From: a virus
Strand: one strand, 5' to 3'
Length of the DNA: 31,660 nt
Virus record (IMG/VR): IMGVR_UViG_3300025312_000518
Location: 1-31,660 of that record
Shown here piece after piece: positions 2,013-29,345 of the stretch (position 1 is its first letter; each line of letters begins with the position of its first letter). The notes under the pieces were generated by a model. It saw only the letters and a program-made list of their open reading frames with translations, was not told where the DNA came from and did not search any database. The translations under genes and the position numbers were made by a program.

Positions 2013-2368
2013 GCTCGCTTCTCCTCTCCCGGTTTTCCGTGGCAGCGCTGACACACCCGCTCTGCTGGCCACGGCGGCAGGCGCTCCCAGTACACGCTGC
2101 CGCCACAGATGCCGCAGCGCCATGGCTCACGCTGCTCGGGCGGGACCCAGCCGCTGACGAAGGCCGCAGACAGCTTGTAGAACCGCATCCTATCCAGATG
2201 GCGCCGCCGCGCAGCCCTCGCCGCGTCCGTCTCGTCCTTCGGTGCGTTGTAGACCCATCGGCCGCAGGCCCCGCAATAGACACATTGCTGCCCAGCCTTC
2301 GGCTCAATTCGGCCCTCCCAGCCGCCACAGGCAGGGCAAGCCTGGCGCATCGGATACGACTCAGCCAT
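2009..2368 (-). CDS. Double zinc-ribbon protein (119 aa)
   Basis: Two Cys-rich units are visible. The N-terminal one (residues 11-38) has CPACGG and CVYCGACGRW, a zinc ribbon followed by the polar stretch VYNAPKDETDAARAARRRH. The C-terminal one has CGICGG and CQRCHGKPG, a second four-Cys site. The middle is basic and helical. The fold suggests nucleic-acid or protein binding with no visible catalytic residues. ATG at 2368 overlaps the stop of the primase gene (ATGA), so it is translationally coupled to replication genes and may assist primase or nuclease. An HNH-like enzyme was considered, but I see no His-Asn-His set. Confidence 0.7.
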   Translation of the reverse strand: MAESYPMRQACPACGGWEGRIEPKAGQQCVYCGACGRWVYNAPKDETDAARAARRRHLDRMRFYKLSAAFVSGWVPPEQREPWRCGICGGSVYWERLPPWPAERVCQRCHGKPGEEKRA

Positions 2369-3153
2369 CAGAACGCCCCGGGCCCCAGGCCCTTACGGTA
2401 GGCCGACCGAATCGTCCGCTCCACCTCGCGCCAGTCCTGGGCACCCTGGGCGTAGTCTCGCTCCCAGCGCAGCGCCATGTACCGTAAGGCCATGTCGAGC
2501 GGCATCTGGGCCTGCCGGAGCATGTGGGCCTCGACGTAGGCGCTCTTGTTCCGCTCCTCGATGGGCACCTCCGGACGCCATGGGGACGGGAAGCCGGCCG
2601 ATGCAACGCTGCTCTCATCCTTGATCCCCACTTTGTCGCAGAGCCACTTCCAGGCCAGGGCCAGTGAGGGCGATGGATAGGGCGGGCCACGGCCCACCAG
2701 CTCGTAGCCTGGCGTCGGTGGCGCCGCTACCTGCGTGCCCTCGGCCTTCAGCTCGACCTGGACCGTCCGGCCCTCCCATTGAATCGTGAAGGCCCGCGAC
2801 GGCGAGAGCTGCGCCACCTCCTGGACGTAGACGTGGCACCGCTTGCGGATCGTGCGGACAGATCGCGGGCCATCCCTCCCTAGCGCCGACAGCACTTTGC
2901 CGCCGAGGCCCACGTCGTCGATATCGATAGCGGCTAGGCCGCCGCTGGTGTGTCCCAGTACAATGCCCAGGCCGGAGGCTCCCTCCCACGGTAACGCCGC
3001 AACGGCCTCTTCCGTCGCTACCAGGTGAGTCCAGTTCGCCACGATGGGGCGCTTCGGGAAGCCGGCCAGGTCCAGGGTCAAGGGCATGGGGCACCAGCCA
3101 CGTTGTACCAATATCGCGGCACACTCCCTAAGGTCCATCGGCGTATCACCCAT
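2368..3153 (-). CDS. Prim-Pol (archaeo-eukaryotic primase superfamily) bifunctional DNA primase/polymerase
   Basis: The protein matches the Prim-Pol N-terminal domain in order: KRPIVANWTHLVATEEAV (near 34-51), then SGLGIVLGHTSGGLAAIDIDD with the metal-binding D77 and D79, then RKRCHVYV with H107, then VELKAEGTQVAAPPT (133-147) in the place of the third acidic motif and its PPS-like loop. The rest is helical and ends near 261 with no helicase domain; the helicase is a separate gene just upstream. It should make primers on phage DNA, possibly with DNA polymerase activity. The start at 3153 has no well-spaced Shine-Dalgarno; AAGGAGG lies about 18 bases upstream, and M6 at 3138 is possible. Confidence 0.87.
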   Translation of the reverse strand: MGDTPMDLRECAAILVQRGWCPMPLTLDLAGFPKRPIVANWTHLVATEEAVAALPWEGASGLGIVLGHTSGGLAAIDIDDVGLGGKVLSALGRDGPRSVRTIRKRCHVYVQEVAQLSPSRAFTIQWEGRTVQVELKAEGTQVAAPPTPGYELVGRGPPYPSPSLALAWKWLCDKVGIKDESSVASAGFPSPWRPEVPIEERNKSAYVEAHMLRQAQMPLDMALRYMALRWERDYAQGAQDWREVERTIRSAYRKGLGPGAF

Positions 3154-3180
3154 GCCCGTTCCCTACCCATACCTCCTTAG

Positions 3181-3273
3181 CGTCGCACGCCCCTATAAAG
3201 GGGGGCGCGTTGCAACGCCTGTTTGCGACGCCCGTCGCAGCAACGTCGCAGGCGTTGCAACTTGCAACGCCTA
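3181..3273. other. Palindrome-rich spacer: candidate replication origin or operator
   Basis: The only real gap between helicase and primase genes is dense in symmetry. It holds GCGTTGCAACGC (3207-3218, perfect palindrome), GCGACGCCCGTCGC (3225-3238, 6-bp arms) and an inverted repeat with 10-bp arms GGCGTTGCAA/TTGCAACGCC around one base (3251-3271). CGTCGCA occurs three times in direct orientation (3181, 3233, 3244) and once inverted (3224). A small AT-rich core (CCCCTATAAAGGGG, about 3190-3203) sits in otherwise GC-rich DNA. Iteron-like repeats beside RepA-like helicase and Prim-Pol genes are typical of origins, but a repressor operator is equally possible. Confidence 0.55.
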
Positions 3274-4512
3274 CCCATCTCTGGCCCAGGAAGGCACGAG
3301 CCAAACATCGCCCTCCTCACGGCCGGGCTCGGTGCCAAAGAGGTCCTTGTGGCGGCTTAGAACGTTTCTGATCTGGGCAGCGTTCAGCTTAGATGCCTCC
3401 TGGGCAGCCAACCTGCTGAGGCGAGCCCCAGGGGCATCCCTGAGGCAGGCAATCAAAGCGTCTCTATGGGTCAGGTGCTTTCTCATCTCGTAGATTCGGC
3501 CGGGGTCGTGATAGCCGATGCGGACGGACTCCTCATCGAATTGGACGCGCAGGCCAAAGGTCCTCTGGAGCTTCCCCCGGTTAACCTTCCGGTGAATGAT
3601 GCCCAGATCAATGATAGATTCGTCCTCTCTCTCTCCGGCCTTCAGGAACCAGAGGCTACGCATGGTATTCCACCAGAAGATCGACCCGAATGGCCATTCG
3701 TCGTCCTTCTTGGCATGGTGGGCCAGGGTGAGGGTGGTAGGTATCCCTGTCGTGCGTAGAGCCCTGTAGTACGCCGTAGCCGTGTCTGCCTTCTCGGGGT
3801 CGCCCCCGCAGGCGAGGGCGGCCGAGTCTACGACCAGGAACCGGATGTCTTCCTTCGACGCTAAGCGGGCGACGGAATCAGCAATACTCGTGAGAGGGGC
3901 ATCGGCCGCCTTGTGGATCACGCGCGCCGGCTCATGCTGGTGTCCCGAACAGATTAGCTCCAGGCGCTCCTCGTGGATGTCGTTCTCGTCCTCGAAATCG
4001 AGGTACAGCGCGGCCCCGCCACTGGTGAGCGTTGGCAGTCCCAAGTGCTCAACCCCGGTAGTTACCGCTACGCAGGTGGCCAACGCGAGGAGACTCTTGC
4101 CAGAGCCGCCGCGGGCGTACCACATGGTGTGATCCTTCTCGCGTATCAGGGGAGTCATCATGTACCCAGGAGACTCGCTCGGTTTCCTGGGTTGGAGCAG
4201 TGTCGGTGGTGCTCCTTCCTCGAACGCCAATCGCACGGTCCGACATGCCTTCTCCAGTAGCGGGTACCAGTCGGTTTCGCCTACGCGATCTTTGCACGCC
4301 TTGACAGCATCTGATTTCGAGCGGCTTCCTGTGAGTACGATCTTGCCCTCATACAGCTCCCCGTCAGGTCGGCCGGGGAAGCCATCCAGAGAGATGTTGA
4401 GCAGTGCGACCAGGTCCTCCCGCGAGTCATGAAGCCGGGAGAAGCGGAACATGGCCCCTGGCCAACTGGCGATGTAGTCGGGCCCCTCGCGCCTGATCTC
4501 TGGCGGGTCCAC
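3271..4512 (-). CDS. RepA/DnaB-type replicative helicase (AAA_25-like ATPase) with C-terminal winged helix
   Basis: The RecA-like core spans about residues 115-335: Walker A GGSGKS (135-140), acidic LYLDFEDEND (169-178), Walker B RFLVVDSA (224-231) and LTLAHHAKKD (261-270), the order seen in hexameric RepA-type helicases of phages and plasmids. Residues 345-413 form a winged-helix-like tail (LIACLRDAPGARLSRLAAQEAS, AQIRNVLSRHKDLF). It should unwind DNA with the adjacent Prim-Pol. The GTG start at 4512 lies 3 bases after the TAA of the upstream gene. Part of the winged-helix coding sequence is duplicated almost exactly at 11984-12024. Confidence 0.87.
   Translation of the reverse strand: MDPPEIRREGPDYIASWPGAMFRFSRLHDSREDLVALLNISLDGFPGRPDGELYEGKIVLTGSRSKSDAVKACKDRVGETDWYPLLEKACRTVRLAFEEGAPPTLLQPRKPSESPGYMMTPLIREKDHTMWYARGGSGKSLLALATCVAVTTGVEHLGLPTLTSGGAALYLDFEDENDIHEERLELICSGHQHEPARVIHKAADAPLTSIADSVARLASKEDIRFLVVDSAALACGGDPEKADTATAYYRALRTTGIPTTLTLAHHAKKDDEWPFGSIFWWNTMRSLWFLKAGEREDESIIDLGIIHRKVNRGKLQRTFGLRVQFDEESVRIGYHDPGRIYEMRKHLTHRDALIACLRDAPGARLSRLAAQEASKLNAAQIRNVLSRHKDLFGTEPGREEGDVWLVPSWARDG
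3336..3376 (-). repeat. 41-bp direct repeat, copy 1 (inside helicase gene)
   Basis: This copy encodes QIRNVLSRHKDLF in the winged-helix tail of the helicase. It matches 11984-12024 at 40 of 41 bases, in the same orientation. The difference is t at 3358 versus c at 12006, a synonymous change in the helicase frame. Confidence 0.9.
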
Positions 4513-7661: not shown

Positions 7662-8228
7662 CTAACCGTCGGGGTGCTGGTCACGGTAGCTACGCCTCTG
7701 CGCCATCCTGCTCTCCTCCAGGCGCTTGACCTCGGCGACCGCCTCGCTCATCTCTGCGCGGGACCTTAGCAACCCCATCAGCCGACCCCAATCGAACTCT
7801 CCAGGATCGCTCTTGACCGAGTCGATCTCCTCGTGCCCAACCAGCGAGTGCTCCCGATCCAACCCAAACCCATACCGCTGCCGCATCCCCAGAATCCACT
7901 CGGCCAGGAGGTAATACTGGGCGTCAGTGTAGTCGTCGTCCGCCGTCGGCTGCTCCAGCTCGACCCCTAGATGCGTGGCGTTCCATGCCTTCGCGTGCCA
8001 GGCGATCCACTCATCCGGGACGCATTGAGCCCGCCGCCCATCGCGCCCGATCACCACGTGCGCGCTCACCTGGCTGGCCGGGTTGGAGAACCAGCGCAGG
8101 GTCGCGTCGAACTCGACGCCGTAGGCCGCGCCGCCACGGGTCGAATGCACCACGACCCCGTCCGCCGCCTGAGCGCGCGGCCCGCTGTGGTTTGGGCTCA
8201 GCGCGACGATCCACGGCTGACGGCTCAC
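7662..8228 (-). CDS. N-acetylmuramoyl-L-alanine amidase (Amidase_2/PGRP fold) endolysin
   Basis: Zinc-amidase motifs are complete: VVVHSTRGG with H28, SAHVVIGRDG (55-64), GVELEQP with E90, SLVGHEEID with H132, and KSDPGEFDW with D141, so the H/H/D metal site is present. Amidases of this family cut the bond between MurNAc and the stem peptide of peptidoglycan. The protein is 188 residues, nearly all catalytic domain plus a charged helical tail (SEAVAEVKRLEESR); no separate wall-binding domain or signal peptide is seen, so it would need a holin. The GTG at 8228 is chosen because it overlaps the TGA of the hydrolase gene (GTGA); an upstream in-frame start at 8264 is less likely. Confidence 0.9.
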   Translation of the reverse strand: MSRQPWIVALSPNHSGPRAQAADGVVVHSTRGGAAYGVEFDATLRWFSNPASQVSAHVVIGRDGRRAQCVPDEWIAWHAKAWNATHLGVELEQPTADDDYTDAQYYLLAEWILGMRQRYGFGLDREHSLVGHEEIDSVKSDPGEFDWGRLMGLLRSRAEMSEAVAEVKRLEESRMAQRRSYRDQHPDG

Positions 8229-9616
8229 CCTTTTGGGACTATGGGGGATCGGGCGACGACCCAAGCGTCACCCGCGCCGTCCTGGTACTCCAGGACGCGA
8301 GGCTCGCCGTTGATGGTCGCCACCTGTCGGATCAGACCGCCGCCAATAGCGGTCTCGTTCTTCAGCGCCTCGACCACATAGCCGGCAGCACGCAGCTTGC
8401 CGGCCAGAACGGCCATCGCTCCGATAAAGGTTGGCATTGGTGTCTCCTCCTCCTCGACTTCGACTACAACCCGCTTCAGCTCCAGCACCGGCGGCACGTT
8501 GGCCATCTGGAGCACCCCAAACCGCTCGTCCTCGAACAGGTGCCCGAACAGCAACCAGGGCCCCCAGTCTGCCTCGGGGAACTGTCCGATGGTGCGGCGG
8601 ACCAGCGCCTCGTACTCCCACCGCGCCAACTCGCGGTCGCTGAAGGTGGTCTGCGTGGAAGTGAATGGGCAGCTTGGCGCATATCGCTTGACTAGGGCGA
8701 CGTAGCTTGGCCAATCTGGCGGCACCTGGACGATGGCCTCTGGCCCCGCCACCTGCACGACCTGGCGGTTCCATTCGCCTACCATCACCGGCAGCAACTC
8801 CAGCAAGCCGTACTGGCTCATAGCCTGGAGCGCATGCTCAATCCGGCTCCCACCGTAAGCGCCGCCTTCGCGCTGCAACTCGGGCGGGCAGAGCAGCCGT
8901 ACCGCCGTGTCCAGGTAGGCCGGATTGCCCGGCCGGATCGGCTCGCCGTAAGTGTGGAGCGCCGTGCCGAGGCGCTTCACGGGGCCGGCGTTCAGCTCCT
9001 CGATCTTGCGCCGCAGGTCCGGCTGACCGAACGCATGCCAGATGCTCAGCTCGGGGCGCCAGGAGCCATGTGGGCCGAGACCGTCGGCGATGTAGCCGTT
9101 GGGGCTCAATGCGTCGATCCAATCCATCGCACTCAGCACGACCTCGTTGAATCCCAGGGCGGCGAATACGCGCGAGTGCGCGAACATGAAGGCGATGGCT
9201 TGGTGCTCGTCGTCCGTCCAGAGCCCGCCGCCACGGTAGCCCCACGGAGAAAAGACCCCCTCGATATTGACTTCGTTGGCCAGCACCGCGTGACGGCTTC
9301 GGTCATGGACCGAGCGGCCATCGCTGCGCACCGCGAGCCACATCCGGCCCTGCTCCTTGCCCCACTCGTAGGCCAGCGCATCCACGTCCTGCGGCCGACA
9401 GGTGGTGAGGTCGTTGGGGCTCGATCCCACGTTCGCTCTGTGTTGTATCCACGCGTTGGGATTGCGCCGCAGAATCTCATCCTCAACGCCGGACTCCCAG
9501 GAGCGGAAATGAGCGTACTCGAAGAAACGCTCATCCCAGCGGGATTGCGACTGTGAACCCACGTGGATTATTCGAGCCATGCCCACGAGGCGCCTATCTG
9601 GATGAACAGGCCTCAT
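8225..9616 (-). CDS. Putative clan-A (TIM-barrel) glycoside hydrolase-like protein (463 aa)
   Basis: The sequence looks like a (beta/alpha)8 hydrolase. It has WLAVRSDG and LANEVNIEG with an Asn-Glu pair at 114-115 (acid/base position in clan GH-A), FNEVVLSAMDWIDAL, LGTALHTYGEP, and VMVGEWNRQ with E281 as the possible nucleophile. After about residue 370 comes an acidic linker and a small C-terminal domain. It is directly coupled to the amidase, which suggests paired attack on cell-wall glycans, but a polysaccharide depolymerase is also possible. I prefer ATG 9616 (AAGGTG upstream, 10 bases after the previous stop). Exact family unassigned. Confidence 0.55.
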   Translation of the reverse strand: MRPVHPDRRLVGMARIIHVGSQSQSRWDERFFEYAHFRSWESGVEDEILRRNPNAWIQHRANVGSSPNDLTTCRPQDVDALAYEWGKEQGRMWLAVRSDGRSVHDRSRHAVLANEVNIEGVFSPWGYRGGGLWTDDEHQAIAFMFAHSRVFAALGFNEVVLSAMDWIDALSPNGYIADGLGPHGSWRPELSIWHAFGQPDLRRKIEELNAGPVKRLGTALHTYGEPIRPGNPAYLDTAVRLLCPPELQREGGAYGGSRIEHALQAMSQYGLLELLPVMVGEWNRQVVQVAGPEAIVQVPPDWPSYVALVKRYAPSCPFTSTQTTFSDRELARWEYEALVRRTIGQFPEADWGPWLLFGHLFEDERFGVLQMANVPPVLELKRVVVEVEEEETPMPTFIGAMAVLAGKLRAAGYVVEALKNETAIGGGLIRQVATINGEPRVLEYQDGAGDAWVVARSPIVPKG

Positions 9617-11128: not shown

Positions 11129-11205
11129 TGGCGGTGCGTACCGGACTCGAACCGGCGATCTCCTCCTTGACAGGGAGGTGTCCTGGGCCACTGGACGAAC
11201 GCACC
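11129..11205 (-). tRNA. tRNA-Asp (anticodon GTC), CCA encoded
   Basis: A full cloverleaf can be drawn on the minus strand. The acceptor stem is GGTGCGT/ACGCACC, the D stem GTCC/GGAC, the anticodon stem CCTCC/GGAGG with loop CTGTCAA (anticodon GTC), and the T arm GCCGG-TTCGAGT-CCGGT. The discriminator base is G, as expected for tRNA-Asp, and CCA follows at 11131-11129. It sits just after the terminator that closes the virion block. A phage-borne tRNA may support late translation, or the site could be an old attachment site. Confidence 0.95.
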
Positions 11206-26539: not shown

Positions 26540-27012
26540 GTGGCCCCTCCTGATTCCGACAGGTTGCTACGGACACGCCACTCGAACGCGAAGAACCTCC
26601 CCCACAGGATGTAGTCCCGCAGGGGCGGTGGCGCCACGGTATCCATCTCGAAGACGAACGGCAGTACCAGGCTGGGGTCACCCCGCCGCTTGGCCTCGGC
26701 CCATAGAGAAGAGGACGGGTCGAAGGTGCGGGAGTCGAGCTGGTAACTGTACGTGGGCCCATGGACGACGATCTCGTCCCCGTTGTGCTGGTAGCCGCGG
26801 ATGCCCAGCCGCTCGATCATGCGGGACGTTGCCCATGCCAGGTGCTGTTGCAGGGAGCTCGCGGTGAGCGGCATGGCGTCGATCTTGAAGCCGTGGCAGG
26901 GCGCCGCAGGACAGGAGCAGCGCACCATCGCCACGTCAGCGTCGACCGTCACCGACGCCTGCCGCCAGACGGGGCACAGCTCCTTCTCCTGGAACCGGAG
27001 CAACTGCGGCAT
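26533..27012 (-). CDS. Hypothetical protein after the capsid gene (159 aa)
   Basis: MPQLLRFQEKELCPVWRQAS, then VRCSCPAAPCHGFKI give four Cys that could form a zinc site. Later stretches are YQHNGDEIVVHGPTYSYQLD, FVFEMDTVAPPPLRDYILWG and FFAFEWRVRSNL. ATG at 27012 lies two bases past the capsid stop. Genes here in related phages often code head-completion proteins; I see no motif to support that directly. Confidence 0.65.
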   Translation of the reverse strand: MPQLLRFQEKELCPVWRQASVTVDADVAMVRCSCPAAPCHGFKIDAMPLTASSLQQHLAWATSRMIERLGIRGYQHNGDEIVVHGPTYSYQLDSRTFDPSSSLWAEAKRRGDPSLVLPFVFEMDTVAPPPLRDYILWGRFFAFEWRVRSNLSESGGATW

Positions 27013-27014
27013 GG

Positions 27015-27923
27015 TTACGACGTTCCGTACACCACCACGTTGAATACGTCGGTCGCGGCGCCGCCACCAGCCGTGATGGGCGGTTGCAGCGCCTCGGCGT
27101 AGCCGTAGATGTGCGTCGCCAGCACGACCTCGGCGTCCTGGTGGACGGAATAGATCGGGGGCCTGGTCTTCAACTGCTGCGAGCAGTAGTACACGCCCTT
27201 CTTGTGGCAGAACCAGTTGTCGGCCTGGCCTCCCGCCGGGGCCCGGACCAGGGTGGTCTTGTAGACCTGGGCGTTGAGAATCTTGCCGACATGGGCCTCC
27301 CGCACGGCGCTGCCGGCCGTCGCCGGGCCCACGTAGTCGGCGTGGGTAAAGCGGTCGATCTTGAGCATGCTGTAGTAGGTCCCCGGCCGCACGACGATGA
27401 ACCTGTCCCCCTCGGGGCAGTTGGCATCGTCCAGCGCCTGGGATGCCGCGAGCCAATGATCGTAGGTGGGCTCCAGCCCCAGGGTGCCCTGCGTCTGCGA
27501 GAACGATTGCGGCAGCGTGTGCAGGTTCGTCTCGGCCGCCGCCGCCAGGGCGTAGCCGGCCTTGCCGGTGTACTTCTCGATCAGGTCGGTCTTGCTCTGC
27601 ACCGCGGTGATGTTCTCGGCCGCAAAGCCCACGTGCTGGTGCGTCGCCACCGTGAACGTCTGCGAGGCCTCCGCGCTGGACGGGCCGATCACCTCCAGGG
27701 TGATGTTGGTGTTGGCCGTCTTCGTGTTGGCCGTCGGGTTCGAGATGTAGGGGATGTTCAACGTGTCCCCCGGACCACCGACCAGGTCCTTCAGGCCGAA
27801 GTCATCGCTTTCGACGAGCGCCCCGATCACGATGTTGGCCTCGACCGCGTCTCTCGTAGACGAAGCCCACAGCTCCGGGATGTGGCATGCCGCCTGGGTT
27901 ATTGTGAGCGTACCAGCCGTAAT
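27015..27923 (-). CDS. Major capsid protein, P22/HK97-fold-like, with ATT start (302 aa)
   Basis: The frame contains HIPELWASSTRDAVEANIVI followed by GALVESDD and DTLNIPYISN, matching the N-terminal pattern 'FIPEIWxxxxLRALxANLVFxxLV' of P22-type coat proteins. The E-loop-like and P-domain strands follow (FTVATHQHVGFAAENITAVQ; DRFIVVRPGTYYSMLKIDRF; AEVVLATHIYGYAEALQPP). The conserved N-terminus lies upstream of the first GTG (27830). Between the in-frame TAA at 27947 and that GTG there is no ATG, GTG or TTG, so ATT at 27923-27921, preceded by AGGAAGAGGGAG, is the best start. It assembles the capsid shell with the scaffold upstream. Confidence 0.8.
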   Translation of the reverse strand: MTAGTLTITQAACHIPELWASSTRDAVEANIVIGALVESDDFGLKDLVGGPGDTLNIPYISNPTANTKTANTNITLEVIGPSSAEASQTFTVATHQHVGFAAENITAVQSKTDLIEKYTGKAGYALAAAAETNLHTLPQSFSQTQGTLGLEPTYDHWLAASQALDDANCPEGDRFIVVRPGTYYSMLKIDRFTHADYVGPATAGSAVREAHVGKILNAQVYKTTLVRAPAGGQADNWFCHKKGVYYCSQQLKTRPPIYSVHQDAEVVLATHIYGYAEALQPPITAGGGAATDVFNVVVYGTS

Positions 27924-27944
27924 ACTCCCTCTTCCTTTCTTGCC

Positions 27945-28334
27945 TTACCCGGCTATCCCTACCGCCATCGGCAGGAAGACGCAGCCAGGCGGCGCCTGGT
28001 TGATCGGATCATCGGGCCAGATAGAACACATGCGAGGTCGCTCGGGCTGCCCGTAGACCTGGCACCTGCCGTCTTTGGCCAATCGAGAACACGGGACCTT
28101 GAAGCGGATCGAGCCGCCTCGCCACTCCCATGGCACCGCAGCATGAAACCGCACCGCGTCGCGGCCATCCATAACCAGGCCGGGATGCAGCCTCAGCCAA
28201 AGCATCTCATCGTCGATCAGGGGCCGACCAAGGTGCGCCTCGCGGGTCTCTCCTATCCTGTAGAGATACGGCACCGGCAGCTCGACGTAGCGGCAGCACT
28301 GGCCGCGATCCGAGCAGCCATCACAGGCGTTCAC
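27945..28334 (-). CDS. YkgJ-family cysteine-cluster protein (129 aa)
   Basis: CDGCSDRGQCC (C4, C7, C13, C14) and VPCSRLAKDGRCQVYGQPER with C82, C91 and the final RPRMCSIWP (C103) match the 'CxxCxxxCC...C...C...RPxxCxxF/WP' layout of the YkgJ (Zn/Fe-binding) family. Function of that family is not firmly known. Its presence between scaffold and capsid is unusual for a core head operon. It shares reading frame with the capsid gene, from which only its TAA separates it. Confidence 0.85.
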   Translation of the reverse strand: MNACDGCSDRGQCCRYVELPVPYLYRIGETREAHLGRPLIDDEMLWLRLHPGLVMDGRDAVRFHAAVPWEWRGGSIRFKVPCSRLAKDGRCQVYGQPERPRMCSIWPDDPINQAPPGCVFLPMAVGIAG

Positions 28335-29180: not shown

Positions 29181-29345
29181 CTATGACGTTGCGCTATTCG
29201 TTGCTACGTATACGCCTTGCGCCTCTGGTTTGTCAACTACCAGATGTTGCCGCAGCCCGCACCGGCTGCACGTGATCCACAACTTGCCCTCCAGCCGCTC
29301 GGCGAAGAGCTTGCGGCACTTCGGGTTCTGGCAACGAACCTCCAT
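29181..29345 (-). CDS. Com-like zinc-finger protein (54 aa)
   Basis: MEVRCQNPKCRKLFAERLEG followed by KLWITCSRCG has C5, C10, C26 and C29. This is like phage Mu Com and its relatives, which have 'IRCxxCxKLLxxxxxxxxLEIKCPRC'. Com binds an mRNA hairpin and frees the start of the next gene (mom). The ATG at 29345 lies two bases after the stop of the large virion gene. The 3' neighbour begins inside a hairpin, which makes a Com-type role attractive. After residue 33 the tail VVDKPEAQGVYVATNS is unlike Com. Confidence 0.7.
   Translation of the reverse strand: MEVRCQNPKCRKLFAERLEGKLWITCSRCGLRQHLVVDKPEAQGVYVATNSATS
29207..29236 (-). promoter_or_regulatory. Candidate sigma-70-type promoter ahead of scaffold and capsid genes
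   Basis: TTGACA (29236-29231), a perfect -35, is followed after 18 bases by TATACG (29212-29207) as a partial -10. It lies within the end of the Com-like gene and points to the scaffold gene. The -10 match is only four of six. Confidence 0.45.

Follow-up and report, generated by a model that had tools for sequence, protein, structure and literature searches.

A Phage Major Capsid Gene without a Canonical Start Codon: Candidate Initiation at a Near-Cognate ATT or ACG

The capsid locus

The window analyzed here is the whole 31,660-nt stretch of viral DNA in record IMGVR_UViG_3300025312_000518. Its capsid locus lies on the minus strand and comprises the following features:

27945 to 28334, minus strand: YkgJ-like (CxxCxxCC) gene; Pfam PF03692, 22.8 bits, just below the 23-bit cutoff
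27925 to 27938, minus strand: purine-rich, Shine-Dalgarno (SD)-like tract AAAGGAAGAGGGAG, ahead of the ATT
27921 to 27923, minus strand: candidate start ATT; AAGGA 7 nt upstream (aligned spacing)
27918 to 27920, minus strand: candidate start ACG, aligned with the GTG of L003 and the ATG of the other relatives; GAGG 7 nt upstream
27828 to 27830, minus strand: GTG, the first canonical triplet, most likely an internal Val codon, given the conservation upstream of it and its absence from L004 and L005
27015 to 27923, minus strand: major capsid protein gene, identified by a PHROG 267 match and by the capsids of L003, L004, and L005

The capsid assignment is supported by PHROG profiles and by a distant phage homolog. 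The predicted protein matched PHROG 267 (major head protein, E = 1.3e-21) and PHROG 283 (E = 6e-12), and in a search of phage records the only annotated relative was the capsid of Arthronema virus TR020 (27% identity), whose gene also lies behind a portal gene and one other gene. Head-family matches and a location behind scaffold-region genes, as found here, are what we take to mark a tailed-phage major capsid gene. The preliminary description of this DNA had proposed a P22-type capsid; the capsid identity held up, but the P22 label was not confirmed, as there was no Pfam P22 coat match to the protein. A structure prediction from a 4-sequence alignment gave a pLDDT of 28. The closest relatives belong to the same family, with proteins 93 to 94% identical in L003 (IMGVR_UViG_3300025326_002466; L009 is the same contig; 94% for L003/L009) and 69% identical in L004/L011 and L005. 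No relatives were found in scans of bacterial and archaeal genomes, nor in plasmids, and L012 to L014, found via the 767-amino-acid (aa) protein at the window's end, gave no capsid match.

Other genes in the window include a Prim-Pol primase/polymerase domain gene (2368 to 4512, minus strand) beside an AAA_25 helicase-like gene, likely a replication module, and an Amidase_2 endolysin gene (7662 to 8264, minus strand; Pfam E = 4e-23). The search for an unusual tRNA returned only a single tRNA-Asp (GTC) in the window (11129 to 11205, minus strand). A previously unlisted 54-aa zinc-ribbon gene (MEVRCQNPKCRKLFAERLEGKLWITCSRCGLRQHLVV...; 29181 to 29345, minus strand) lies between the 767-aa and 270-aa open reading frames (ORFs) of the same operon and weakly matches Com (PF10122, 17.6 bits; cutoff 22.9) and PHROG 6417, a translational regulator (E = 2.6e-5). 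This gene is nearly identical in L009, a relative with a GTG start, so that no link to the capsid start follows from its presence. The YkgJ-like protein of the window shares 54% identity with that of L009 (3119 to 3430), with an internal length difference, while its neighbors are 85 to 94% identical. The gap from the capsid stop to the ATG of the next gene is 2 bases in the window (27012 to 27014), with about 56 extra bases in L009 (4380 to 4437).

Coding sequence upstream of the first canonical triplet

The YkgJ-like ORF ends at a TAA (27947 to 27945) that shares the register of the capsid frame and precedes the ATT by 21 nt. From this TAA, the minus strand continues GGC AAG AAA GGA AGA GGG AGT ATT (27923) ACG (27920) GCT GGT ACG CTC ACA ATA ACC CAG, and the capsid register translates as a stop followed by GKKGRGSITAGTLTITQAACHIPELWASSTRDAVEANIV. 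The frame contains no ATG, GTG, or TTG between the TAA and the GTG at 27830, 38 codons past the stop. Near-cognate triplets in frame upstream of that GTG are AAG (27941), ATT (27923), ACG (27920), ACG (27911), ATA (27902), ATC (27881), CTG (27872), ACG (27857), and ATC (27833). Such an absence alone is ordinary, since 16% of 30-codon stretches in the window's genes lack all three canonical triplets; the question is whether the stretch is translated. The idea of a phage-wide shortage of canonical starts was rejected after a survey of 26 ORFs in the window, which begin with ATG (15), GTG (10), or TTG (1), the capsid gene being counted under GTG 27830.

Comparison with L003, whose DNA is about 87 to 88% identical, revealed purifying selection on this segment. 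Across the 29 codons immediately preceding GTG 27830 there were 10 synonymous changes and 1 amino acid change, with 3, 0, and 9 mismatches at the three codon positions, which argues that GTG 27830 is not the main start. The N terminus, LTxTQAACHIPELW...TRDAVEA, is kept in the 69% identical relatives L004/L011 and L005, and a PE(L/I)W-like motif lies near the N terminus of nearly all relatives of 22 to 28% identity. Neither L004 nor L005 retains GTG 27830 itself. Taken together, purifying selection ahead of the GTG, the conserved N terminus, and the SD-like tract lend good support to a putative non-canonical start farther upstream. The preliminary description had pointed to the conserved N terminus, the lack of canonical triplets, the purine-rich stretch before the ATT, and the register shared with the YkgJ frame, all of which were borne out by the minus-strand reading and these comparisons.

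Start codons at homologous loci

We compared 15 non-identical homologous loci (L003 to L008, L015, L020 to L023, L027 to L029, and L031), at which the capsid gene starts with ATG (14 loci) or GTG (1 locus). The GTG is that of L003, where the start region reads TAAGGAGGT ATTCAA GTG GCA GGT ACT CTC; the capsid genes of L004 and L005 begin ATG GCN AAY CTN, and ATG is also the start in L006 to L008, L015, L020 to L023, L027 to L029, and L031, always followed by Ala in the L020 to L031 group. Good SDs precede the GTG of L003/L009 and the ATG of L004/L011 and L005, whereas a canonical start is absent from the beginning of the window's capsid gene. What is unusual, then, is that the start-less stretch is conserved coding sequence, whereas all 15 non-identical loci begin with ATG or GTG. 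The latter observation counts against a near-cognate start, and the ATT-ACG arrangement is confined to the window and the identical L002, with no conservation across relatives.

In an ungapped protein alignment, the ACG at 27920 to 27918, followed by GCT (Ala), aligns with the GTG of L003. L004 and L005 are one residue shorter here, and their ATG matches the window's ACG if the gap is put after the third codon. A single base separates this ACG from ATG, and the ATT is one codon upstream of the ACG. Since an in-frame ATT is found in L003 as well, directly behind the SD and two codons ahead of the GTG, the ATT in the window may be an inherited spacer. Initial inspection had placed the capsid start at the ATT. 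Coding conservation and the SD-like tract uphold an upstream non-canonical start, but not the ATT as such: when the N termini were aligned, the relatives' start fell at the ACG position, a point missed in that first reading.

Candidate initiation at ATT or ACG

These comparisons lead us to favor, as the probable explanation, a capsid gene without a canonical start that is initiated, in one lineage, at the near-cognate ATT or, less likely, at the ACG. The canonical start would have been lost, probably recently, in this phage lineage, with the gene left intact and in use. Ribosomes would be positioned by the purine-rich tract just upstream and would initiate at a near-cognate codon within ATT-ACG (27923 to 27918), and those ending the YkgJ-like gene 21 nt before could perhaps help by translational coupling. 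Initiation at ATT would give 302 codons and the more likely product, fMet-Thr-Ala-Gly-Thr-Leu (predicted N-terminal peptide MTAGTLTITQAACHIPELWASSTR); initiation at ACG would give 301 codons and the alternative fMet-Ala-Gly-Thr-Leu, as in L003 (predicted peptide (M)AGTLTITQAACHIPELWASSTR). Both would end at the TAA at 27017 to 27015.

The SD-like tract is moderate, weaker than the TAAGGAGGT of L003, and its strength does not separate the two codons: AAGGA lies 7 nt before the ATT and GAGG 7 nt before the ACG, the spacing at which the full SD of L003 precedes its GTG. Local RNA folds around the start were uninformative. ACG is a poor bacterial start, weaker than AUU, and table 11 is not known to list it as a start. 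On biochemical grounds, ATT is the likelier start, and we give it about twice the weight of ACG.

AUU is the start of infC in E. coli, while infC of S. aureus starts with AUA (PMC5472188, PMC13009471). Bacterial AUU starts are used, at about 10% of AUG output given strong SD pairing (PMC13009471, PMC5472188); the AUU of S. aureus cvfC1 is one example, at about 10% (PMC13009471). The window shares with infC a conserved coding sequence, an ATT at its beginning, the lack of a canonical start, and an SD-like tract. In infC, however, the weak start serves autoregulation and is kept across related bacteria, whereas in the window it would be restricted to one lineage and to an abundant structural gene, with ACG at the homologous position. 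S. aureus cvfC1 (AUU) and ccpN (AUA) likewise combine a weak start with an upstream SD, but their SDs are extended and their starts are supported by ribosome profiling (PMC13009471), whereas the SD of the window is a moderate, predicted one. Searches of the literature turned up nothing relevant on ATT-initiated capsid genes in phages. A weak start would be unexpected for the most abundant virion protein, and we are doubtful that the capsid is productively translated at a high level from the ATT or ACG, whether by virtue of the SD tract, coupling to the upstream gene, or lowered start-codon fidelity particular to the phage or its host.

Alternative explanations

It is conceivable, though unlikely, that ATG is the true triplet at 27920 to 27918 in the phage population and that the C at 27919 is a consensus error or marks a minor or defective start-loss variant. 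The ACG is a single base from ATG exactly at the homologous start, and a canonical start is present in all non-identical relatives. Consensus errors are rare, however, and a second contig, L002 (IMGVR_UViG_3300025174_000793), is identical over all 5,644 of its bases, the start site included; the sequence was thus assembled at least twice, making an error in one assembly unlikely, although the two contigs may share a study or a related sample. An earlier suggestion of sequence error is disfavored to the same extent. When IMG/VR was scanned with a degenerate N-terminus pattern, only L002 and the GTG-starting L003 matched, with no ATG version. The capsid gene is otherwise undamaged and its neighbors are full-length, which speaks against long-standing decay, though not against a variant that lost its start recently. 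The capsid gene and its neighbors are uninterrupted and, apart from the YkgJ-like gene, 85 to 94% identical to L009.

Translation from GTG 27830, yielding a virion protein without the 30 N-terminal residues, is improbable. This GTG is the first canonical triplet in frame and has a GAGG 8 nt upstream, but that GAGG is embedded in conserved codons and base-paired in the local fold, and the amino acid-level conservation ahead of the GTG, like the lack of the triplet in L004 and L005, would not be expected of a start. Equally improbable is another route to the protein, be it frameshifting out of a different frame, an intron, or a further capsid gene beyond the ends of the contig. The junction is uninterrupted by stops in one alternative frame, intron-split capsid genes are reported in Cluster J mycobacteriophages (PMC3706429), and the contig, a linear one, may not be complete; against this, no ORF of at least 60 aa with a canonical start runs into the alternative frame, there was no Rfam intron match, and the window contains no second capsid gene.

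Readthrough of the TAA at 27947 to 27945, which had also been raised at the outset, would yield a YkgJ-capsid fusion; this, or a capsid made only as such a fusion, is the least probable of all. The common register and the open 7-codon linker would permit it, but neither is conserved among relatives. In L003 a TAG lying 28 nt ahead of the capsid GTG closes the YkgJ-like gene in another register, the linker differs in length and sequence, and the capsid has a strong SD of its own; in L004 and L005 the preceding stop is closely trailed by an ATG with its own SD. Readthrough would also yield little of an abundant protein.

Implications

If initiation at ATT-ACG is real, a protein of which each virion requires hundreds of copies would be made from a codon whose usual output is a small fraction of that of ATG. 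This would show to what extent a weak start can be offset by an SD tract or by translational coupling, and also that gene callers can truncate or misplace such genes. If the triplet is instead a variant or an error, the start calls of viral contigs need checking against homologs. Confirmation would establish a rare use of a start codon in a known kind of gene, confined to a single lineage among the sequences compared here.
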